Shown here: piece by piece, positions 8,266 to 48,419 of the stretch
Position numbering within the stretch: position 1 is the stretch's first letter
How the letters are laid out: the number at the start of each line of letters is the position of its first letter
Assembly (NCBI GenBank): GCA_029556545.1
Contig: JAKQEQ010000105.1
Coordinates: 1 to 48,419 of the forward strand
Source: Candidatus Hydrogenedentota bacterium
Lineage (GTDB): Bacteria; Hydrogenedentota; Hydrogenedentia; Hydrogenedentales; JAGMZX01
Direction of reading: 5' to 3'
DNA length: 48,419 bases
The notes under the pieces: generated by a model
What the model saw: the letters and a program-made list of their open reading frames with translations, nothing else
The model's database searches: none
What the model was told of the DNA's origin: nothing
Program-made: the position numbers and the translations under genes

Positions 8266-11200
8266 CTACCCCGGCCCCGGGCAGAAGCCGTCCTCCGTAC
8301 CCGCGCCCGGACAGGCGTGGTAACCGCCCGAGTTATAGAACTGGATTAGCCGAAGCAGTTCCGTCAGCGTGATGGTCCAGCTCGGGCCGCCGGCATAGTC
8401 CGACGAATGGGGCGCGCAGGCGTGGTTGTCGCCAGGGCCCGGCACGTAGCCGTCTTCCGTATCGCCCGCGTTTTCCGCGCAGTGGAAACCGCCCGAATTG
8501 TAGAACTGGATAACCCGCAGGAGCTCGGTCAACTCGATGAAGTTGTTCCCATTCTGGTCGGCTGCGTGAAACGCGGCTTGCCCTTCACCTTCACCTTCGC
8601 CTTCGCCTTCGCCTTCGCCTTCACCTTCGCCTTCACCCTCGCCCTCGCCCTCGCCTTCGCCCTCGCCTTCGCCTTCGCCTTCGCCTTCACCTTCGCCTTC
8701 ACCCTCGCCCTCACCCTCGCCCTCACCCTCGCCCTCACCCTCGCCTTCGCCCTCACCTTCACCCTCGCCTTCGCCTTCGGCGCCGGCCGGGTACTCATAT
8801 GCGCCGATGTCGTAATTCGAACCGTCGCCGCCTGCGCCGGGACCGTCCAAACCGCGGGCGTTTCCTTCGATATCCGTCGTAACGTTGCCGAACTCCGCGA
8901 GATTGGTATTCGCGCCGGCGTCGATGCACGGCGAAGCCGCCGCGATGCGGTACGGCGTCGCGCTGCCGGGCGCGGTATCGAGTTGTGGGTCCTCGTCCAG
9001 ATTGCCCGTACCGGGGAATCCACCCTGGATATCGCTGTACGTGGCGGTTGTAACGCTGGCATTGTCGAAAACTTCGTCCGGCGAACCGGACCACAGGATG
9101 CAATTGATGACACGCGGCTGCGAACCCAGATTCGAGAGCGCGCCGCCGACGGTGGCGGCGGTGTTGTCGTAGAAGGTGCAATTCGCAATGACTGGTGCGG
9201 CCTGATAGTTGAAGACCGCGCCGCCCGGACCGCCCGTCGTGTTTCCTGCGAAGTACGAGTTGACGATCAGCGGCGCGGAGGCTTTGGCCGCCGACACGCC
9301 GGCCACGCGGCTGAAGGACGCGTTCATGAGAGCGCCGCCGGCGTCGCTGCTCTCGTTGTCGAGGAACAGACACGCCTCAATGCGCGGCGACGAACCGTTG
9401 TTGAACACGCCGCCCGCGTAAGGGCCGCCGTCGTTCGCGTCGAACGTGCAGCGGACGATAGCCGGGTCGCTGGTAAGATTGGCTACGCCGCCGCCCGCCG
9501 CCGTCGCGGTGTTCTGCGTGAACGCGCAGTCTTCGAGCACGGTCCCCGCCTCGGAAAGCTGATGGAACACGGCCCCACCGTATGCCGCGCTGTTCTGATC
9601 GAACGCGCAACGACTGACATGCGCTTCAGACTGCTCGATCTTCACAGCGCCGCCCGCTTCCGCACTGTTCCCGGCAAACCGGCAGTCCGTCACCTCGACC
9701 AGCGCGCACAAGAGATTGTAGATGCCGCCGCCGCCCTGCACGGCGATATTGTCCGTAAACAGGCAGTTCCGGACCACGAGCGACACGTCTTCGTTATACA
9801 TCCCCGCGCCCGAGTCGCCGCGGCCGCCGCGCACGACAAAGTTATCGATCACCGCGCCTTCCGCCCCCAGCACCACGTGCTGCGCGGGCGCTCCCGCGTT
9901 CGCCGTCGCGCCGTCGAGAATCGTCAGGTCTTGGCCGATTGATCGTTGATCGCGCTGCGTTTCGTCGCCCGCAAAGCCGCCATAGATCGCAACGCCCGCG
10001 GCAAGTTTGATCGCGCCACCGGCGGCGCGCGTTTCGTCATAGATTCCATCGGCTACCCAGATTTCCCCAATACCTTGCGTCTGGGCCTCATCGACCGCGG
10101 GCTGTATCTGGGTAAACGCCGTGGCCCAATTCAAGCCGTCTTCCGTGCCTGAAGTGTTGGACTTGTCGACATAGACCACATCACCTTCGCCCTCACCCTC
10201 GCCTTCACCTTCACCCTCGCCCTCGCCCTCGCCTTCTCCCTCACCTTCTCCCTCACCTTCTCCCTCACCTTCTCCCTCACCTTCTCCCTCACCTTCTCCT
10301 TCTCCTTCTCCTTCTCCTTCTCCCTCGCCCTCGCCTCCGCCTTCGCCCAACAGGCAGAAGGCCACGTCATACTCCAACGGCATGCCCTCGCCGTCACCCT
10401 CCGCGTAGCAGTAGCTGTCGCCGTCGAAGGAAGGCATCCCAACGAATGCACACGTTTCGCTGCCGGTCGCTTGAACGGACACCCATCCATCGGCCAATGT
10501 AACGGGTTCCGGCAACGTCACTTCGTAGACAAACAACGTGGCTGTAAACGTGGGCTGCGAGGGAATAGGCGCGAATAGCTGGTCGGCGATTTTGGTCGCG
10601 ATCACGTCGTATTCAACCACCTCCGCGCCATGCGCCCCGGCGTCATCGACGCAGAACGCAACGGAGAAGGTATCCGTCGCCCGTGAACAAGAGCCGCCGG
10701 TTCCTATGTTGATTTCCATTCCATACCACGACACTGCGACTATCGGCGCAGTCACCCCCGCGAAATTGTCATAGAAACGAGCGCCGTACACCGTGTCGCT
10801 AACCGGCGGCGTAGAGAGTCCTTCAAGCACCAATTCGGGATTCTGCCCAAAAAGGGCACTGGGGGGACACGTGGGTGGCTGTTCGCCTTCGCCTTCGCCT
10901 TCACCTTCGCCCTCCGCACCCGTGAGCGAAAGGCAAAACGCCCAGTCATAAGCCACCTGCGACGGCGGATTCACGCCGTCGTCGCTGTAAGAGACGCCAT
11001 CACCCTCGGCGGACGCAAGCCAAATGAGAGTGCACGTTGTCGAACTGCCGTCGGGATCTTGGATGCTGATCCACCCCGAGGCCAGATCACACGGCGTGCT
11101 CAGATCGGCGTCATATTGGCAGATTTCATAAATATATGTCGGATTTTCACCTGTCTCGTCAACGTAGCGCCCCGTGCCGACCTTCGAGGCCGGGACCACC

Positions 11201-11613
11201 TCCGAATGGAACAACGCGCCGGGTTGTCCGCCATTATCAAGGCGGAACTCGATCAAGACGCTATTCTCTTCCCTCGAGCACACTTCGGGCATCGTGGGGC
11301 CGCAAGGAAACGGCATCTCAAAGGGCGTTACATCCATTCCCCACCACCGAACATGCACAATGTCCTCCGTTATACCCGAGAAGTTGTCAACGATGGCCCC
11401 TTGGTATCCACTGACTCCGGCATAAAAACCCGGGTCCCCCGGCATTGCCAGGAGCTGGCCAAACAGCGTGTCGCTCGGGCAGACAATCCCCTTCCCCCCG
11501 CCCCCCCGATCCAGTCGTTGCCCCGAAACAGGCGCTACGGACGCACACACGACATAACACGCGGCAACCGAGATCACACCCGCAACCGAGACCGACAATC
11601 TTCCGCTTTTCAT
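8266..11613 (-). CDS. Large secreted surface protein: two repeat domains, beta-helix, Glu-Gly linkers, dockerin-like tail
   Basis: 1115 residues, with AAGGAGAG before the ATG and a signal peptide ending near VAPVSGQ. Two related beta domains (about 45-240 and 250-425, both starting CPS..LFGQ) are joined by a short Glu-Gly run. A long Glu-Gly linker (about 428-480) leads to a right-handed beta-helix of the Chlamydia-Pmp/choice-of-anchor type, opening with VYVDKSNTSGTEDGLNWATA and repeating GGxxxN/CxFxxN motifs up to about 930. A further Glu-Gly linker precedes the C-terminal tag (about 1011-1115). That tag has two LTELLR(V/L)IQFYNSGG repeats, the first preceded by an EF-hand-like DQNGNNFIELTE loop, with cysteines in FHC, HAC, HAC and a final GTEDGFCPG. 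It probably acts at the cell surface as adhesin or glycan lyase-like protein; no catalytic site was identified. Confidence 0.75.
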   Translation of the reverse strand: MKSGRLSVSVAGVISVAACYVVCASVAPVSGQRLDRGGGGKGIVCPSDTLFGQLLAMPGDPGFYAGVSGYQGAIVDNFSGITEDIVHVRWWGMDVTPFEMPFPCGPTMPEVCSREENSVLIEFRLDNGGQPGALFHSEVVPASKVGTGRYVDETGENPTYIYEICQYDADLSTPCDLASGWISIQDPDGSSTTCTLIWLASAEGDGVSYSDDGVNPPSQVAYDWAFCLSLTGAEGEGEGEGEGEQPPTCPPSALFGQNPELVLEGLSTPPVSDTVYGARFYDNFAGVTAPIVAVSWYGMEINIGTGGSCSRATDTFSVAFCVDDAGAHGAEVVEYDVIATKIADQLFAPIPSQPTFTATLFVYEVTLPEPVTLADGWVSVQATGSETCAFVGMPSFDGDSYCYAEGDGEGMPLEYDVAFCLLGEGGGEGEGEGEGEGEGEGEGEGEGEGEGEGEGEGEGEGEGEGEGEGEGEGEGEGDVVYVDKSNTSGTEDGLNWATAFTQIQPAVDEAQTQGIGEIWVADGIYDETRAAGGAIKLAAGVAIYGGFAGDETQRDQRSIGQDLTILDGATANAGAPAQHVVLGAEGAVIDNFVVRGGRGDSGAGMYNEDVSLVVRNCLFTDNIAVQGGGGIYNLLCALVEVTDCRFAGNSAEAGGAVKIEQSEAHVSRCAFDQNSAAYGGAVFHQLSEAGTVLEDCAFTQNTATAAGGGVANLTSDPAIVRCTFDANDGGPYAGGVFNNGSSPRIEACLFLDNESSDAGGALMNASFSRVAGVSAAKASAPLIVNSYFAGNTTGGPGGAVFNYQAAPVIANCTFYDNTAATVGGALSNLGSQPRVINCILWSGSPDEVFDNASVTTATYSDIQGGFPGTGNLDEDPQLDTAPGSATPYRIAAASPCIDAGANTNLAEFGNVTTDIEGNARGLDGPGAGGDGSNYDIGAYEYPAGAEGEGEGEGEGEGEGEGEGEGEGEGEGEGEGEGEGEGEGEGEGEGEGEGEGEGEGEGEGEGEGEGEGQAAFHAADQNGNNFIELTELLRVIQFYNSGGFHCAENAGDTEDGYVPGPGDNHACAPHSSDYAGGPSWTITLTELLRLIQFYNSGGYHACPGAGTEDGFCPGPG
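8582..8778 (-). repeat. Hexameric coding repeat (Glu-Gly linker before C-terminal tag)
   Basis: About 33 imperfect GGYGAR hexamers (read here as TTCGCC, TTCACC, CTCGCC, CTCACC) encode an uninterrupted Glu-Gly run. Synonymous changes are frequent, so the peptide is conserved more strictly than the DNA. Confidence 0.9.
10181..10347 (-). repeat. Hexameric coding repeat with recent 12-bp tandem amplification
   Basis: This encodes the Glu-Gly linker in front of the beta-helix. Inside it are five perfect 12-bp copies of CCTTCTCCCTCA (10232-10291), then five perfect CCTTCT hexamers (10292-10321). The perfection contrasts with the diverged flanks and indicates recent slippage. Confidence 0.9.
10882..10914 (-). 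repeat. Short Glu-Gly coding repeat
   Basis: About five hexamers encode the short linker between the first and second beta domains of the surface protein. Confidence 0.8.
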
Positions 11614-39992: not shown

Positions 39993-41708
39993 TTGCCGAC
40001 CCATACAAAGCGCTGTTCTGGCCGGTTTCCCGCTTGCCGCGCCGAAACCTCTCGCGAAGGCCCGACCGCGGGTCTTTTCACCGTCCTGTCTGCGTTCGTG
40101 ATCCTGCTGTCCGCCCCTTGCGCCCATGCCGACGCCACGCTCGTGGGACATTGGAGACTCCTCGGCGACATCACGGATATCTCCGGCCGGGAGGCGCACG
40201 CAGTCAACCACGGCGTGACGCTCACGCCCGAGGGCGCGGTCTTCGACAGCAAGGATGCCTGCATCGAGGTTCTCCCCGACAAGATTGGACTCCCCGCGAC
40301 CGGCGAGTTCTCCGTGAGCGTGTGGGTCCGCGGCGCGGATCGCGACGGCGAGTGTTTCGGGGACGTGGTGTCGTTGTTCGACATCACGGAACGGAAGGGA
40401 TTCAGCCTTGCGGTGCAGACAAGGCGCGGCGTCACTTCCGCCCAAACCAACTGGGAAAACCCTTTCTTCGGCGTGAACAACGGCGCGCCGGAGACGCCCT
40501 GGACGGACTGTGGACGGCCCGGCGACAACAACATGGTCTGGGCGCTGTGCGTATATGCGGGCGCGCTGTACGCGGGCACATTCGAAACCGGCAAAGATCA
40601 GACGGGCCATGTCTACCGCTACGAAGGGGGTACGGCCTGGGCCGATTGCGGCGCGCCGCACCCGAGCAACGCGATCACCGCCCTTGCGGTCCACGACGGG
40701 AGCTTGTACGCGGCGGCTTCCCACTACCGCGCGGGCGGATCCGCCCTCGCCGAGTCCGAGAATCTCGTTCCCGGCGGGCGTGTATTTCGTTACGAGGGCG
40801 GCGCGGCCTGGACCGATTGCGGCGGGTTGGGCGACAGCGAAGCGGTCGGCGGCATGGCCGTCTTCAACCGCAGGCTCTACGCCACCTCGATGTATTCCCC
40901 CGCGGGCATGTACCGTTACGCGGGCGACGCGGTCTGGGAGTCCTGTGGCGATCCGGGCTATCGCGTTGAAGCCCTCTCGGTCTTCCAGGACGCCCTCTAC
41001 GCCGCAGGTTGGGACGCGGAACGGCCCGGCATATTCCGTTACGATGGGACGGCGTGGGCATACTGCGGGACGCCGCCCGACATCCACCAGAGTTATTCCT
41101 TTGCCACCTATGCGGGCCGCCTTTACGTCGGCACCTGGCCGAACGCCGCGATCTACCGGTACGGCGGGGGCAACTTGTGGGAAGACTGCGGGCGTCTCGC
41201 GGAGGAAGAGCGGGAAGTCATGGCCATGGCCGCGTACAACGGCGCGCTTTACGCCGGGTCGCTGCCTCTCGCCGCGGTCTATCGATACGAGCCCTCCAAC
41301 CGATGGGCTTCTACCGGACGCCTCGATCTCACCCCGGATGTCAAGTACCGCCGCGTCTGGTCCATGGCCGTATATCAAGGCAAGCTGTTCGCCGGCACCT
41401 TGCCGTCGGGCCGCGTCTACGCCATGGAGGCGGGAAAATGCGTGACCCATGACCACGCGCTCGCCCCGGGATGGAACCACCTGATCGCCGTGCGCGAACG
41501 CGAACACATTCGCCTGCACGTCAACGGCGCGCTCGCGGCGGAGGCGGCGTGCCCAGCGGATCGGTATCCGCTGCCCGAGAACACGTCTCTTCGCATCGGC
41601 CGCGGGCCCCACGACGCATTTCACGGCGCCATGCGCGATCTCCGCATCTACAACCGCGCCTTGACCGACGCCGAGACGCGCGATCTGGCCGCCGTGCGCC
41701 CCGAATGA
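39993..41708 (+). CDS. Secreted LamG/ConA-like protein interrupted by a seven-bladed propeller
   Basis: 571 residues from a TTG at 39993 (GGAGG 10 bases upstream). A signal peptide, FTVLSAFVILLSAPCAHA, ends at about 46 after a long Arg-rich n-region. Residues about 48-150 are the first half of a LamG/concanavalin-like jelly-roll (LVGHWRLLGDITDISG, FSVSVWVRG). Residues about 155-480 are seven repeats, each with a (R/K)YEGG-type strand and a W-x-(D/S/Y)-CG-like turn (172, 219, 275, 318, 357, 399, 440) plus LYAGT strands. Residues about 485-571 are the second LamG half (GWNHLIAVRE, LHVNGALAAE, MRDLRIYNRALTDAE). It probably binds glycans at the surface. No catalytic residues seen. A diverged copy of the dispersed repeat lies within the n-region. 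Confidence 0.7.
   Translation: MPTHTKRCSGRFPACRAETSREGPTAGLFTVLSAFVILLSAPCAHADATLVGHWRLLGDITDISGREAHAVNHGVTLTPEGAVFDSKDACIEVLPDKIGLPATGEFSVSVWVRGADRDGECFGDVVSLFDITERKGFSLAVQTRRGVTSAQTNWENPFFGVNNGAPETPWTDCGRPGDNNMVWALCVYAGALYAGTFETGKDQTGHVYRYEGGTAWADCGAPHPSNAITALAVHDGSLYAAASHYRAGGSALAESENLVPGGRVFRYEGGAAWTDCGGLGDSEAVGGMAVFNRRLYATSMYSPAGMYRYAGDAVWESCGDPGYRVEALSVFQDALYAAGWDAERPGIFRYDGTAWAYCGTPPDIHQSYSFATYAGRLYVGTWPNAAIYRYGGGNLWEDCGRLAEEEREVMAMAAYNGALYAGSLPLAAVYRYEPSNRWASTGRLDLTPDVKYRRVWSMAVYQGKLFAGTLPSGRVYAMEAGKCVTHDHALAPGWNHLIAVREREHIRLHVNGALAAEAACPADRYPLPENTSLRIGRGPHDAFHGAMRDLRIYNRALTDAETRDLAAVRPE
40034..40066. repeat. Dispersed repeat, copy 3, inside a coding start
   Basis: CTTGCCGCGCCGAAACCTCT then CGCGAAGGCCCGA, 184 bases after copy 2. 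It encodes part of the n-region before the signal peptide of the LamG/propeller protein, so that N-terminus may derive from an inserted repeat. Confidence 0.5.
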
Positions 41709-41771: not shown

Positions 41772-44700
41772 ATGATGTTCCCTGTGTGTAGTACGACCCT
41801 GTCGGAGAGTCCAATCGACAAGTCTCGCGAGTGCTCGCGTGCCGCCCCTGATCGACAAAGGTTGATGCTTGTCGTCCTGGGCTTGATCGCCTTCCTGGCC
41901 GCGCCGGCGGCGGCATCAGCAGTCAGCGTTGCGTTCCTGGCCGCCGAGGCCTCGGAAGAGGCGATAGGCCCCCACAATCGCGCGGGATGGGAAGCGGCAT
42001 GGAACCTGGGAAACGCAACACTGCTGTTGACCGACGGCAATGGCGGCTTCCGGGACACGACCGGAGACAGTCGCGACTTGGCCGAGTTCGACGTCGTCTG
42101 GCACCACCAGGGCGACGCCATCGCGCGTACCGTGCTTTATGGAGGGCCCTACGTTGCGGCGATCCGCCGTTTCGCCGAAAGCGGGGGCGGGGTATTGCTT
42201 ACAGGCGGCGCGCTCGCGCTAATAGACCACCTCGGCCTTGAGCCGGACGTGCGGTCGCAGCGGCATGACTTGGAACACTATCGGGATCCCGCGGCGATGG
42301 TTCCGGTCGAGCGGTCGCATCCCGTATTCGCGGGTCTTCGCGAAGAGGAGGGCCTTATCTGGCTGAGCCGCGGGGGATGTCCGGCAGTAGCCGATTTCTA
42401 TTGGGGCGGCCCGGCGGAAGGCATGGTCCTCGCAAACACGCCACGCGGCGTCGAGCGGCCGCTTGTGGAATACGAGGTCGGCGACGGCCGCCTGATTCTT
42501 TTCGGCTGGCGGTGGCCGGATTACGCGGACGTGGAAAGCCCCTATCGCGACAACCTGATCACGCTTACAGGCAACCTGATTCATTACCTTGCGGACGCCC
42601 GATTGTGGCGTCCGGTCGTAATACGGTCGAAGTTTCCCGCCGCGGCCTATCCGGAAGAACCTGGCATAGCCGCGCCGCGTTGGGGGGCGCTGCGCATGGC
42701 AATCGAGGACCTCTCGCGCGAGTTCCCCGATCAATACGTGCGCGGCCCCGAGTATCTGCGGCAATTGGCGGCGCTTGAAGAAAGACACCGTCGTCTGTCG
42801 TCGGACGCGGACCCCGACGCTTATGGCCCCGTCATTGCCGAATTCGAGGCGATCCAGCGCGCCGCATTGCTCGACAATCCGTTGCTCGACTTCGACCGGC
42901 TCCTGATAATTCGGCGACGGATCGACAAGCTTGGACTGCCGCTGAACTACCACGGCAACGACGACCTGGAACCGAGGGGATACGAAAACGCCATCGTGTC
43001 GTTGAGCCCGCCCGCGTCGGGCGGCGCGGTTGCGACCGTTTTCACGCCGGGCGACGATCGCTTCGTCGGCGATCTCGACCTGCACTACGACGGTGAGAAG
43101 CTGCTCCTGTCGATCCCCGACGACGACGGACGCTGGGGCGTCGCGGAGTTGGACCTGAACAGCGGGCGCTTGGACCGATTGCCGCTCATAGACAAACCTG
43201 ACGTCCACAACTACGATGCCTGTTATCTGCCCGACGAACGGATCGTCTTCACGTCCACCGCGCCCTTTGTCGGCGTGCCGTGCGTCGGCGGGCGATCCAA
43301 GGTGGCGAACCTCTATCTGCTCGACCGCAGCCGGCAGGTCCGCCGCATGACGAACGACCAGGATCACAACTGGTGTCCCGCCGTGCTGAACGATGGACGG
43401 ATTCTCTACCAGCGGTGGGAGTACGCCGACATCGCGCACGCATTCATGCGCCTGCTGTTTCGTATGAATCCCGACGGCAGCGGCCAAATGGAGTATTACG
43501 GCAGCAACTCGTTCTGGCCGACGGCGGTGTTCTTCGCCCGTCCGGTTCCAGGGCATCCCACGAAAGTGGTCGCGGTCGTCGGCGGCCATCACGACGCGCC
43601 GCGCCAAGGGGAACTGGTCATCTTGGACCCGGCGCTTGGGCGTCACGAGACGAACGGGGTCGTGCAGCGAATACCCGGTTTCGGAGAGAAGGTCGATCCG
43701 GTGATACTTGATGGGCTGATATCGGCGAGTTGGCCGCGCTTTCTCCATCCGTTTCCCCTCAGCGAGAAGTACTTCCTGGTCTCCTGCAAGCCGACGAAGA
43801 CGGCGAACTGGGGCGTCTATCTGGTGGATGTGTTCGACAACTTCGTCCTGCTCCACGAGGAACCCGGCTGGGCCTTCTTCGAGCCGATCCCGTGGCGAAG
43901 AACCGAGAGACAGCCCGTCATCCCCGACGTGGCCGACCCCGGGCAGACTGAGGCGACGGTATTGCTCGTGGACGTCTATCGCGGGCCGGGGCTTAAGGGC
44001 GTTCCACGCGGCGCGGTCAAGTCGTTGCGGCTCGTGGGGTACGATTTCACGTTCCACGGACTCGGCGGCGAACCCGACCGCGTCGGTTTGGACGGCCCGT
44101 GGGACGTGAGGCGGATCATCGGCACCGTGCCGGTCGAAGCAGACGGTTCGGCCAGTTTCCGCGTGCCGGCCTGCACGCCTATATCGCTTCAGCCGCTCGA
44201 CGCCGAGGGCAAGGCGCTCGCGCTGATGCGAAGCTGGTTGACGGCCGCCCCGGGCGAGACGCTATCCTGCGTGGGTTGTCATGAAGCGCAGAACATGGGC
44301 GGACCCTTTGATGCACGGCCAACGGCGTTTCTGCGCGATCCTTCGCCTGTCACGCCATGGTACGGCCCCGCGCGCGGCTTCTCCTTCGACCGCGAAGTGC
44401 AACCGGTGCTGGATGCCTACTGCACCGGTTGCCACCAGGCTGGGCAAGCCGCTTTCGATCTTACGCGCCGTCCCGCGGAACGCGTGCCGTCGGCGTTCCA
44501 GATGCACTTCTCGCCTTCGTACATGGAGCTTCGCCGGTGGGTGCACACGCCCACGCTCGAAAGCGACGCTCACCTGTTGCCGCCGCGCGACTTCCACGCC
44601 GACACGAGCAGGCTGATTCAGATTCTGCGCGACGACCATTACGGCGTGCGGCTGAGCGAAGAAGCGTGGGACAGGTTGATCACCTGGATCGACCTGAACG

Positions 44701-45812
44701 CGCCCTATCACGGCACGTGGCAAGAGGTGGCGGCGGCGGACCCGAACAAAGCCGCCGCCGCGCGCCGGGGCGCGACGCGGCGTCGCGAACTCCATCGGAG
44801 ATACGCGGGCATCGACGAAGACCCCGAGGCAATTTATCCCGCCGCCGTACTTGACCCCGTCGCGCCAACCACGGCTTCCGCCGCGCCGTTATGCGCGGAC
44901 GCCGGCGAGACGCCGCCGGAAAACATGCGCGGCTCGGAAGAGACGGCGGACGATACGCAAGCCGTGTACGTCGAAATTGCGGATGGGGTCTTCCTGGAAA
45001 TGGTCGTGATCAGACCGGGGCCATTCATCATGGGCTCCGATCATGGGTACCCGAACGAGCGACCCGCGCACCGCCAGTCAATCGATCAGGCGTTTCTTAT
45101 GAGTCGCCTCGAGGTGACAAACCGCCAGTACCGGCGCTTCGACCCCGAACACGACAGCGGCTTGGAAACGGGAGAGGCCTATCAGTTCGGCGATGACGAA
45201 CGCGGGTTCCCCTTGAACCGTCCGGATCAGCCGGTCGTTCGAGTTTCCTGGCACAGTGCCATGGCCTTTTGCGCCTGGCTCTCCGAGAAGACCGGCGAAC
45301 GCTTCAACCTGCCCACCGAAGCACAATGGGAGTACGCGTGCCGCGCCGGGTCCGCGGGGTGTCTCAGCTACGGGACGCTCGACGACGACTTCAGCCGATT
45401 CGCGAACCTCTCGGACAGAACCCACCACTCTGTGTACTATCCGCACGTCCCGGACGCGCTGCCCCCGTGGCGGCCCGCCGATACACGCTTCGACGACGGC
45501 TGGCGGGTATCGGCGCCGGTCGGGACCTTCGCGCCGAATGCCTGGGGGCTCTTTGATATGCACGGAAACGTCGCCGAATGGACCCGTTCAGACTACGAAA
45601 CTTACCCGCTTCCTCCCGCAACAAGCCTCGACAATACCAGACAGAACTCCCGAAAGGTCGTCCGGGGCGGCTCATGGCTCGATACTCCCCGCCGCGCCCG
45701 AACCACCTTTCGCCTCCACTATGATCCGTCGCAGCAAATCCATGACGCCGGGTTTCGAGTCGTCTGCGACTTCGCGTCTTTGCAGGCTGGTGTCGCGCGG
45801 GAACATCCATAA
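41772..45812 (+). CDS. GATase1-like / HZS-alpha / di-heme / SUMF1 multidomain exported protein
   Basis: 1346 residues from 41772 (AAGG upstream); an ATG at 41865 would start right at the signal peptide LMLVVLGLIAFLAAPAAASA. Domains: about 52-280 a ThuA/GATase1-like Rossmann domain (GGGVLLTGG, LILFGWRWPD); about 380-830 a propeller resembling the hydrazine synthase alpha middle domain (HNYDACYLPDERIVF, DHNWCPAVLNDGRILY); two c-type heme motifs, CVGCH (833-837) and CTGCH (884-888); and about 1065-1335 a sulfatase-modifying-factor (FGE/SUMF1) fold ending FDMHGNVAEW...VVRGGSW. The FGE catalytic cysteines after RGGS are absent (SWLDTPRRAR). It is probably periplasmic and redox-active or ligand-binding; the function is unknown. 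It converges on a sulfatase gene. Confidence 0.78.
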   Translation: MMFPVCSTTLSESPIDKSRECSRAAPDRQRLMLVVLGLIAFLAAPAAASAVSVAFLAAEASEEAIGPHNRAGWEAAWNLGNATLLLTDGNGGFRDTTGDSRDLAEFDVVWHHQGDAIARTVLYGGPYVAAIRRFAESGGGVLLTGGALALIDHLGLEPDVRSQRHDLEHYRDPAAMVPVERSHPVFAGLREEEGLIWLSRGGCPAVADFYWGGPAEGMVLANTPRGVERPLVEYEVGDGRLILFGWRWPDYADVESPYRDNLITLTGNLIHYLADARLWRPVVIRSKFPAAAYPEEPGIAAPRWGALRMAIEDLSREFPDQYVRGPEYLRQLAALEERHRRLSSDADPDAYGPVIAEFEAIQRAALLDNPLLDFDRLLIIRRRIDKLGLPLNYHGNDDLEPRGYENAIVSLSPPASGGAVATVFTPGDDRFVGDLDLHYDGEKLLLSIPDDDGRWGVAELDLNSGRLDRLPLIDKPDVHNYDACYLPDERIVFTSTAPFVGVPCVGGRSKVANLYLLDRSRQVRRMTNDQDHNWCPAVLNDGRILYQRWEYADIAHAFMRLLFRMNPDGSGQMEYYGSNSFWPTAVFFARPVPGHPTKVVAVVGGHHDAPRQGELVILDPALGRHETNGVVQRIPGFGEKVDPVILDGLISASWPRFLHPFPLSEKYFLVSCKPTKTANWGVYLVDVFDNFVLLHEEPGWAFFEPIPWRRTERQPVIPDVADPGQTEATVLLVDVYRGPGLKGVPRGAVKSLRLVGYDFTFHGLGGEPDRVGLDGPWDVRRIIGTVPVEADGSASFRVPACTPISLQPLDAEGKALALMRSWLTAAPGETLSCVGCHEAQNMGGPFDARPTAFLRDPSPVTPWYGPARGFSFDREVQPVLDAYCTGCHQAGQAAFDLTRRPAERVPSAFQMHFSPSYMELRRWVHTPTLESDAHLLPPRDFHADTSRLIQILRDDHYGVRLSEEAWDRLITWIDLNAPYHGTWQEVAAADPNKAAAARRGATRRRELHRRYAGIDEDPEAIYPAAVLDPVAPTTASAAPLCADAGETPPENMRGSEETADDTQAVYVEIADGVFLEMVVIRPGPFIMGSDHGYPNERPAHRQSIDQAFLMSRLEVTNRQYRRFDPEHDSGLETGEAYQFGDDERGFPLNRPDQPVVRVSWHSAMAFCAWLSEKTGERFNLPTEAQWEYACRAGSAGCLSYGTLDDDFSRFANLSDRTHHSVYYPHVPDALPPWRPADTRFDDGWRVSAPVGTFAPNAWGLFDMHGNVAEWTRSDYETYPLPPATSLDNTRQNSRKVVRGGSWLDTPRRARTTFRLHYDPSQQIHDAGFRVVCDFASLQAGVAREHP

Positions 45813-45840: not shown

Positions 45841-47274
45841 TCAGGCGCTCCCCTCGCTTTCAAGTTGCGCCCCACCCCCCGGCGGCCGCTCGTGCGTATC
45901 GCCCACCCGGTCCATCCACTCCCGCATGTACCCGCGCAGTTTCAGGAGTACCGCCCGGTTCGCCTCGACTTCCGCCATGTTCGCCAACTCGAACGGGTCC
46001 GCCTCTTCGTCGAACAGCGCCTCCTCGTTCACGTCCGTCAACACGTATTTCCAGCGATCCGTCCGCACCATCCGGTGCCCCATGCCCCTCCCGCCCCCGA
46101 CTCCCACGCATTCGCTCGCCACGTACCCGCGCAGCGCTCGTCCGGGATCATCGAGAAGCGGCGCCATCGAAACCCCTTCCAGACCGTCGGGAACCGCCGC
46201 GCCCGCCAGGTCAAGCAACGTCGGGAACAGGTCCAGCGACGACACAAGCGCTTGACTCCGCGCGCCCGCCCTTTCGAGCCCCGGCCAGTGCAGCAACATC
46301 GGCACCCGCACCGACTCCTCGTGCATCGTGATCTTGTTGCCCAGCCCGTGGTTTCCCAAATGGTACCCATTGTCCGACAGATAAACGAATACGGTGTTCT
46401 CGTATACCCCCGCCTCCTTCATCGCATCCACAAGCCGCCCTATTTGATGGTCCAACCGCGATACGACCGCATAGTAGGCCCGCGTGAATTCAACGATCTG
46501 CTCCCGAGAACGCGGCGGACCCGAAGGAAGTCCCTCGTAATCGTTCCGCACCTCGGAATCCCGGTAATAGTGTTCCCCCGGCAGACCCTGGTTGAAGATA
46601 CTCTCTCGAGGCGGCGACTCCAGGAAGTTCCGATCCACCGGAATCTCCGCATCCCGGTAGAGTTCGAGCCATTCCGGCGGCGGCGCAAGCGGTATGTGCG
46701 GCTGCCGCGCCGCCACCCAGAGAAAGAACGGCTTCGGATTGTCTCGCCGCTGTTCGATAAACCGGCACGCGAACGCAAAGGTCTCATCGTCCGTCCGGTC
46801 CTTCAGTTCCCCGCCCTCCGCGAAACCGTAGTCGCGGGGCGGCCCCAAATGCGACTTCCCGCAGAAACCCGTATCGTAGCCCGCTCTCGCCAAGAGCTGC
46901 GCCACTGCCAACAGCCGCCCTTGCGCCACCACATTCTCCTGGAAGCCGCTCCCGTCAAGCGCAATGGCCCCATGTTGCTGCGGGAACAGGCCCGTCAAGA
47001 GACTCGCCCTGCTCGCCGCGCAGATCGGCGTCGCAACATAGGCCCGATCGAACACAATCCCCTCACGGCCCAGCCGATCCAGATTCGGCGTCTTCACCGC
47101 GTCATTGTTGTAGCCCACGGCCCGGTAGCAATGGTCGTCGCTAAGCACCACAACAACGTGAGGCCGCCGCGCCTTTCCCGAGGCCTCCCGCCCGACGGCG
47201 CGCGGCGTCGCCAATGCCACACCACCGACTACTGCCGTCCGCAGGAAATCGCCCCGCGTGATCCTGTCCTTCAT
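45841..47274 (-). CDS. Exported sulfatase (type I, Cys-type)
   Basis: 477 residues from the ATG at 47274 (GGAGGG 9 bases upstream). The N-terminus TRGDFLRTAVVGGVAL resembles a Tat signal with one arginine changed to glycine. It hydrolyses sulfate esters of carbohydrates. Metal ligands D46-D47 (VLSDDH) and the later LSDNGYHLGNHG are present. The formylglycine precursor is C85 in CAASR; the usual C-x-P-S-R is C-x-A-S-R here. The substrate is probably a sulfated glycan. It needs formylglycine formation, but the adjacent SUMF1-type domain lacks the catalytic cysteines, so the maturase must be elsewhere. Confidence 0.9.
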   Translation of the reverse strand: MKDRITRGDFLRTAVVGGVALATPRAVGREASGKARRPHVVVVLSDDHCYRAVGYNNDAVKTPNLDRLGREGIVFDRAYVATPICAASRASLLTGLFPQQHGAIALDGSGFQENVVAQGRLLAVAQLLARAGYDTGFCGKSHLGPPRDYGFAEGGELKDRTDDETFAFACRFIEQRRDNPKPFFLWVAARQPHIPLAPPPEWLELYRDAEIPVDRNFLESPPRESIFNQGLPGEHYYRDSEVRNDYEGLPSGPPRSREQIVEFTRAYYAVVSRLDHQIGRLVDAMKEAGVYENTVFVYLSDNGYHLGNHGLGNKITMHEESVRVPMLLHWPGLERAGARSQALVSSLDLFPTLLDLAGAAVPDGLEGVSMAPLLDDPGRALRGYVASECVGVGGGRGMGHRMVRTDRWKYVLTDVNEEALFDEEADPFELANMAEVEANRAVLLKLRGYMREWMDRVGDTHERPPGGGAQLESEGSA

Positions 47275-47478
47275 CACAGCCGTCCCTCCGGCGTATGCCT
47301 TGACGCTAATCTTACCGTCTCGGCACGCCCGACGCCACGCTCCCCTCAACGTGCCGTTGGCCTCTTCCGGCCCCTACGTCATCGCGCCGGCATCCGCATT
47401 CTCTGGCTGTTATGTCGCATCGCGGCGCGGATAAGTTCCCTGACTCTCCGCGCCGCAATGCGATCGCTCATCAACCTC

Positions 47479-48419
47479 TCAGAGTCCCGGGCAGAAGCCG
47501 TCCTCCGTGCCTTCGTCCGGGCAGTAGTGGTAGCCGGGGAAGTTGTAGAACTGGATCACCCGCAGCAACTCGGTCAGCGCAATCTGCCAGTTATGCGGCG
47601 CGTAGTCGCTCGCATGCGGGCAGCAATCCTGGTTCGCGCCGGCGCCCGGCACGTAACCATCCTCGGTGCTCAACGGGTCGTCCGCGCAGTGGAACCCACC
47701 CGAGTTGTAGAACTGGATCACCCGCAGCAACTCGGTCAACTCGATCAGGTTGTTCTGTGACTGGTCCGCCGTGTGGTACTCGCTCGCGCAGGGGTCGCCT
47801 TCGCCTTCGCCTTCGCCCTCGCCCTCGCCTTCGCCTTCGCCTTCTCCTTCGCCCTCGCCCTCGCCTTCGCCTTCACCCTCGCCCTCACCCTCGCCTTCGC
47901 CTTCGCCCTCGCCCTCGCCCTCAGCGCCCGATCCCGTCGAGACCACCACGTCCACCAACACCCAGCACGAGACCTGCTGTTCCGGGAACGGCAACTGGCT
48001 GATGATCTCGCCCGCCGGAACCGTCTCGCTCGACGCCTCCGTCACTGTGCCCAGAACCAGCATCGCCGCGTCAAGCGCCGCCTCCGCCGCCTCGACCGTC
48101 AACCCAATCACGCTTGGCACCACCGTCAGGCACGGACCCAGCGAGATTACAATGTCCACCGCCGTGCCGTAGGGCACCCCCGTCCCCGCGCCCGGGTCCT
48201 GGCCCATCACCAGATTCTCTTCCACCGTCTCACTGTAGTCATAGGTCACCTCGCCCACCGCCAGACCCAGCGCCAGCAACGCGTTCTCCGCCTGGATCAT
48301 CGTCAACCCCGTCAGGTCCGGAACCGGCACCGACTCCGGAACGAACTGGGCTATCACCTCCCGGTTCTGCGTCATGAACCCCGACAAAGTCGGCGACGTC
48401 GCGTCGAAACCGTCCGGCA
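47479..48419 (-). CDS. PASTA-domain surface protein with Glu-Gly linker and dockerin-like tail (5' end outside window)
   Basis: The frame stays open to the right edge, so the N-terminus is missing; 312 codons are visible. The first residues (FDATSPTLSGFMTQNREVIAQF) look like the end of a bacterial InlB-B-type repeat. Two PASTA domains follow (VPDLTGLTMIQAENALLALG and VPSVIGLTVEAAEAALDAA), each ending in VDIVISLG or VDVVVSTG. A Glu-Gly linker leads to the C-terminal tag, which nearly repeats that of the protein at 8.3-11.6 kb: DQSQNNLIELTELLRVIQFYN, STEDGYVPG, HASDY, LTELLRVIQFYN and GTEDGFCPG. PASTA domains bind peptidoglycan or related glycans, so a wall or surface location is inferred. Confidence 0.75.
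   Translation of the reverse strand, partial: PDGFDATSPTLSGFMTQNREVIAQFVPESVPVPDLTGLTMIQAENALLALGLAVGEVTYDYSETVEENLVMGQDPGAGTGVPYGTAVDIVISLGPCLTVVPSVIGLTVEAAEAALDAAMLVLGTVTEASSETVPAGEIISQLPFPEQQVSCWVLVDVVVSTGSGAEGEGEGEGEGEGEGEGEGEGEGEGEGEGEGEGEGEGEGEGEGDPCASEYHTADQSQNNLIELTELLRVIQFYNSGGFHCADDPLSTEDGYVPGAGANQDCCPHASDYAPHNWQIALTELLRVIQFYNFPGYHYCPDEGTEDGFCPGL
47796..47922 (-). repeat. Hexameric Glu-Gly coding repeat
   Basis: About 21 imperfect hexamers (TTCGCC, CTCGCC, TTCTCC, CTCACC) encode the linker between PASTA domains and the tail. Same unit as in the gene at 8.3-11.6 kb. Confidence 0.9.

Follow-up and report, generated by a model that had tools for sequence, protein, structure and literature searches.

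A hydrazine-synthase-alpha-like di-heme protein fused to a cysteine-less SUMF1 domain in Hydrogenedentota, and a putative partner encoded elsewhere in the genome

What is the function of a protein that joins a heme core resembling a subunit of hydrazine synthase (HZS) to the fold of a sulfatase-activating enzyme, and that is encoded beside a sulfatase gene? This question is raised by a gene of a Candidatus Hydrogenedentota bacterium, located on a stretch of 48,419 nucleotides (contig JAKQEQ010000105.1, assembly GCA_029556545.1), which is called here the window. The original prediction, made from the sequence alone, described a class I glutamine amidotransferase (GATase)-like domain, an HZS-alpha-like propeller, two CxxCH motifs and the fold of the formylglycine-generating enzyme (FGE) without its catalytic cysteines; this overall description was confirmed. 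Judged from its sequence, the window protein is an orphan paralogue in a clade of HZS-alpha-like/SUMF1 fusions (alpha-SUMF1), a family which is widespread and so far uncharacterised. We give an even chance to a pairing in trans between the window protein and a beta-gamma-like protein encoded outside the window, which would form an HZS-like multiheme complex. To our knowledge, hydrazine synthase has so far been regarded as an enzyme with hardly any relatives. The SUMF1-fused branch of HZS-alpha and the gene of its candidate beta-gamma partner span the Hydrogenedentota, Planctomycetota, Verrucomicrobiota and Bacteroidota.

The reading frame itself is not an artefact since the same protein is present, full-length and with 59–77% identity, in about 20 of the 60 relatives from its order (in two of them as pieces on broken contigs). 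A frame error that would restore the missing cysteines was ruled out because these orthologues are open over an equal length; single stops were seen in four relatives' versions. Loci titled Candidatus Hydrogenedentes matched the window protein at 72–73%.

The homology of the heme core to HZS-alpha was established computationally by several comparisons. The domain search suggested in the original prediction was run, and both PF18582, the middle domain of HZS-alpha (96.8 bits against a curated Pfam cut-off of 26.6), and the FGE-sulfatase domain scored over their cut-offs. A profile of the core matched chain A of the Kuenenia stuttgartiensis structure 5c2v with E=3.5e-33, the match spanning the propeller, middle and cytochrome parts. 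The predicted model of residues 290–1338 (predicted local distance difference test, pLDDT, 87; predicted template modelling score 0.86) found the same chain as its top PDB match in Foldseek (5c2v_A, E=3.8e-27, 790 columns, template modelling score 0.62 by target length). Both the profile and the structural match bear out the HZS-alpha-like propeller. As in HZS-alpha (5c2v/5c2w chain A), the propeller is accompanied by the PF18582 domain, two c-heme motifs in equal order and a histidine near the position of the distal ligand of heme alpha-II. With an offset of 27 between chain and published numbering, His837 of the first motif aligns with HZS-alpha His587 (heme alpha-I) and His888 of the second with His689 (heme alpha-II). 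Both motifs are invariant across 51 aligned fused homologues, and His956, which lies at most one residue from HZS-alpha His772, is kept in 50 of them. His772 is the distal ligand of heme alpha-II (residue roles according to PMC12758564 and PMC12607021); it is absent from the clade I HZS homologues (PMC12758564), whereas the alpha-SUMF1 clade keeps a histidine at or next to that position. The spacing differs, with 51 residues between the two motif histidines in the window protein and 102 in HZS-alpha, and the window protein has the additional N-terminal GATase-like and C-terminal SUMF1 modules. Cys504 and His607 of the propeller show little or no variation, even in relatives without SUMF1, and could at a guess be heme-pocket residues. 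The genome holds cytochrome c assembly genes of the ResB/CcsA type. Furthermore, CcsA adjoins the fusion in Parabacteroides, alone among the Bacteroidota clusters described below, and this supports heme attachment. Covalent heme at both predicted CxxCH sites is plausible, and so is the redox role that had been proposed for the heme motifs.

Does the window protein then make hydrazine? Besides its homology to HZS-alpha, the presence of a beta-gamma homologue in the genome is in favor of a true alpha subunit with anammox-like chemistry. However, Tyr591, the iron ligand of heme alpha-I in hydrazine synthase, and Cys303, a zinc ligand (PMC12758564, PMC12607021), have no equivalents. There is no tyrosine near the first motif of the window protein, and one is found there in a single row of the 51 fused homologues. 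The position of Cys303 lies in an HZS insertion missing from the protein's family; this cysteine is missing too in some anammox bacteria (PMC12758564). The scores are far under the curated HZS cut-offs: the window protein reaches 32 where 800 is required, and the beta-gamma candidate 173 where 1250 is required. An equal conclusion was drawn for other homologues in PMC12758564. Because Tyr591 and Cys303 are absent, we consider that the window protein is not a hydrazine synthase, and hydrazine synthesis is very unlikely. No beta or gamma subunit gene was found alongside the gene within the window. A search for PF13447 (HDH/HAO proteins) was empty, and its controls gave no match either.

An informative partner candidate was found outside the window by a search with the HZS-beta model. 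At C132:110287-118690 of the same genome (= L157:8288-16691), two alpha-SUMF1 paralogues are followed directly by a beta-gamma-like gene, and then by a Rid/chorismatase-like gene. The beta-gamma-like product (612 amino acids, two CxxCH motifs) matches HZS-beta with E=1.6e-29, HZS-gamma with E=1.8e-26 and, weakly, the CCP/MauG di-heme peroxidases, and its best NCBIfam model is the HZS beta-gamma fusion, at the low score given above. It is the one clear beta-gamma gene of a genome that encodes three SUMF1 fusions and five HZS-alpha-like proteins without SUMF1. Two other gamma-like candidates detected with PF03150, on C100 and at another place on C132, were rejected because they are not beside alpha genes.

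A partnership between the window protein and the beta-gamma-like protein is suggested by the clustering of the paralogues and by co-occurrence. Alpha-SUMF1 members other than the window gene often lie beside the gene of a second HZS-like heme subunit: beta-gamma-like genes adjoin alpha-SUMF1 genes at several other loci, and among the loci listed the gene is at most 3 kb from a fusion in 13 of the 37 relatives having it, own genome included. When the count was restricted to loci flanked on each side by 4.5 kb or more, orphan orthologues included, it lay within 5 kb of 7 of 29 fusions, so that clustering is frequent and far from universal. Each of the 20 relatives that have the window protein also has the beta-gamma gene, versus 17 of the 40 that lack this protein (Fisher p=4e-6), and the gene is present in 27 of 29 relatives with any fusion versus 10 of 31 others (p=9e-7), both values being uncorrected for kinship. 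Several observations weigh against the pairing. The flanks read of the window gene and of its Hydrogenedentota orthologues contain no beta-gamma gene, and a single Pirellulaceae relative (L045, 48–50%) has one nearby. In two fusion-bearing relatives, including one that is 97% complete, no beta-gamma match was obtained. Moreover, the co-occurrence may reflect kinship, since operon-bearing relatives may simply have more paralogues.

The main rival is a stand-alone di-heme protein acting in electron transfer, sensing or binding. Having left the beta-gamma complex, it would act by itself at the cell surface, and its GATase-like and SUMF1 modules would bind a ligand. This reading is in keeping with the absence of conserved neighbors around about 15 orthologues, with an N-terminal module unlike that of the operon copies and with a SUMF1 module carried on a low-confidence linker. 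However, genomes with the window protein have kept the beta-gamma gene in 20 cases out of 20, and the core and heme residues are conserved to the same degree as in the operon copies. We therefore regard the stand-alone protein as unlikely, if well short of negligible. In the alternative that we prefer, the window protein would pair in trans with the only beta-gamma-like protein that the genome encodes, and the pair may constitute a four-heme oxidoreductase of the periplasm or surface. The gamma-like heme pair, in a protein predicted to combine a beta-propeller with a di-heme MauG/CCP-like domain, would perform the first redox step; the alpha-like heme site would carry out a second step or relay electrons. 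Binding of a ligand or a partner may be the task of the N-terminal module, which is variable, and of the SUMF1 module on its tether.

Beyond the order, HZS-alpha/SUMF1 proteins lacking the GATase module are found in records of Planctomycetota, Verrucomicrobiota and Lentisphaerae (41–55%) and in Bacteroidota (36–39%), among them gut species, for instance Parabacteroides distasonis. For annotated relatives NCBI gives no more than 'SUMF1/EgtB/PvdO family nonheme iron enzyme', a label that conceals the heme part. A tree was built from the heme core alone (94 rows without Bacteroidota, quick method, midpoint-rooted, with long branches), and in it 65 fused and 29 unfused rows are split by a branch with a Shimodaira-Hasegawa-like approximate likelihood ratio (SH-aLRT) of 100. 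This tree omits L036, a fragment at a contig end, and L055, a long branch; the fused label changes once on it, and twice when these two are included. The alpha-SUMF1 fusions of Hydrogenedentota, Planctomycetota and Verrucomicrobiota form one clade on the core tree, compatible with one fusion event of HZS-alpha and SUMF1. The HZS homologues known outside anammox bacteria (PMC12758564, PMC10732223) belong to the same enzyme family as the window protein, and they too show co-located alpha and beta-gamma genes and loss of the HZS-specific residues; the main text of PMC12758564 has no mention of 'SUMF1', 'formylglycine' or 'Hydrogenedent'. At L080:5091-14432, an open frame spanning 3114 residues includes the alpha-SUMF1 architecture and has four CxxCH motifs.

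Partly conserved clusters surround the fusion in Parabacteroides distasonis (L185:9276-23383) and in Aureibacter tunicatorum (L183/L184). Common to both are the beta-gamma-like gene, a chorismatase/Rid-like protein and a D-lyxose-isomerase-like cupin. IclR is present in Parabacteroides and at one Aureibacter locus, while DhaK, DhaL and LsrF are shared by Parabacteroides and the other Aureibacter locus. The gene content hints at the catabolism of small molecules, perhaps sugars. The Parabacteroides 'plasmid' may be a piece of chromosome because it carries mfd. The Parabacteroides version, at least, belongs to an organism that can be cultivated, so that the chemistry which may have given rise to hydrazine synthase becomes genetically testable. 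A broader proposal would be a widespread class of HZS-like multiheme complexes. Several exchangeable alpha subunits, each with its own ligand-binding modules, would share one beta-gamma core to oxidise sugars or related small molecules outside the cell, and hydrazine synthase would be a specialised offshoot; we consider this proposal doubtful.

The SUMF1 domain raised the possibility that the protein is a sulfatase-activating FGE in unusual form, given the fold (PF03781, common to both) and the adjacent sulfatase gene. The copper-binding pair of human FGE, Cys336 and Cys341, corresponds to Asp1304 and Ala1309, so that both catalytic cysteines are absent, as predicted, and the domain is not a normal FGE. 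Across the 51 fused homologues the Cys336 position is never a cysteine, and that of Cys341 is a cysteine in 11. In addition, the genome yielded a match of 524 bits to an anaerobic sulfatase-maturating enzyme (anSME), which can act on the sulfatases, so that their maturation is explained without the window domain. FGE activity is very unlikely, and we assign to this possibility the lowest probability of all those considered. The loss of the cysteines is not unusual: the pair was found in none of the SUMF1 domains of the genome whose active-site loop was readable. The closest solved relatives are PvdO, then FGE. PvdO (PDB 5hha) is the best-matching solved domain, with 28% identity, and it also lacks the FGE cysteine pair; it differs in that the window domain scores 114 against a cut-off of 500 bits (NCBIfam NF051459) and is fused to a heme protein. 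A literature search on SUMF1-cytochrome fusions, the PvdO mechanism and Hydrogenedentota sulfatases yielded nothing usable. Elsewhere in the genome, about ten SUMF1-domain matches with ends of the FRCARR...GFRC type lie on one contig (C102:37-23106), and these proteins could be candidate variable proteins of a diversity-generating retroelement. A frame of 2539 residues at C9:26768-32893 contains six tandem SUMF1 domains, several with nearly identical C-terminal loops.

The N-terminal module of about 230 residues matches no family over threshold (DUF4960, E=3.6e-4, is below cut-off). Its AlphaFold model (pLDDT 84) resembles in Foldseek the levan-utilisome chain 8aa2_G, ThuA-like proteins, class I GATase-type folds and GH42 beta-galactosidases, so that 'GATase-like' is right as a fold. 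The nucleophile cysteine is absent: none occupies the glutaminase nucleophile-elbow position (LLTGGAL) by reading of the sequence and of a 17-row alignment. Relatives carry other modules there, NPCBM or a sub-threshold LamG.

The positions of these features are given in Table 1. Translation more likely starts at Met32 (41865) than at the start of the frame, and the signal-peptide-like stretch that begins with this residue suggests that the protein is probably exported to the periplasm or surface.

Table 1. Features of the alpha-SUMF1 gene and its convergent neighbor (window coordinates)
Feature	Residues	Position	Strand	Basis
Whole open reading frame, HZS-alpha-like/SUMF1 fusion	1346 aa	41772..45812	+	open frame, intact orthologues
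Signal-peptide-like stretch MLVVLGLIAFLAAPAAASA	32-50	41865..41921	+	read by eye from translation
N-terminal GATase/ThuA-like domain	~52-283	41925..42620	+	predicted model and Foldseek
Helical stretch and TolB/HZS-alpha-like beta-propeller	304-745	42681..44006	+	profile and model
HZS_alpha middle domain PF18582	747-838	44010..44285	+	Pfam, E=1.1e-27
First CxxCH (CVGCH)	833-837	44268..44282	+	aligned with heme alpha-I motif
Second CxxCH (CTGCH)	884-888	44421..44435	+	aligned with heme alpha-II motif
His956	956	44637..44639	+	alignment of fused homologues
Linker from heme core to SUMF1 domain	~1036-1061	44877..44954	+	pLDDT below 50
SUMF1/FGE-sulfatase domain	1076-1331	44997..45764	+	Pfam PF03781, E=5.7e-52, over cut-off
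SUMF1-domain positions of FGE catalytic cysteines	Asp1304, Ala1309	45681, 45696	+	alignment
Convergent sulfatase gene, Cys-type motif CAASR		45841..47349	-	neighbor only, not judged part of system

Is the window protein instead an oxidative helper of the surrounding glycoside hydrolases and sulfatase? The window is a glycan locus, with GH42-, GH106-, GH36-like, GH123-like, sialidase-like and sulfatase genes, and a GH2 gene adjoins the copy of a sibling species. The resemblance of the N-terminal fold to a levan-utilisome protein and the NPCBM module of one relative point in the same direction. However, the neighborhood survey shows that this context is not shared: no neighbor is conserved around about 15 orthologues, most of which lie beside unrelated, mainly housekeeping genes (tRNA ligases, a potassium transporter, an anaerobic ribonucleotide reductase). 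A sulfatase adjoins one of them and is within about 7 kb of two more. Such an adjacency is unremarkable by chance because sulfatase genes number about 40 in the 6.1-Mb genome (42 matches, including pieces). A functional link to the neighboring sulfatase was therefore rejected, and a role in a local glycan-degradation locus is improbable. Of the original interpretation, the HZS-alpha likeness, the heme motifs and the exclusion of a normal FGE stand; the significance attached to the cysteine loss and to the sulfatase does not, and the glycan context holds for the window itself and not for most orthologues.

Directly upstream of the fusion gene, positions 39993-41708 (+) encode a repeat protein with a C-terminal LamG-like domain, a homologue of which is near the orthologue of the fusion in the sibling species only. 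For the frame at 8266-11613 (-), a TrAA12-like match was weak and barely exceeded the cut-off; its protein also has a beta-helix region and an EF-hand-like stretch. At 47479-48387 (-), a Gly-Glu repeat tract is followed by two similar LTELLRVIQFYN segments, which resemble a dockerin-like ending.

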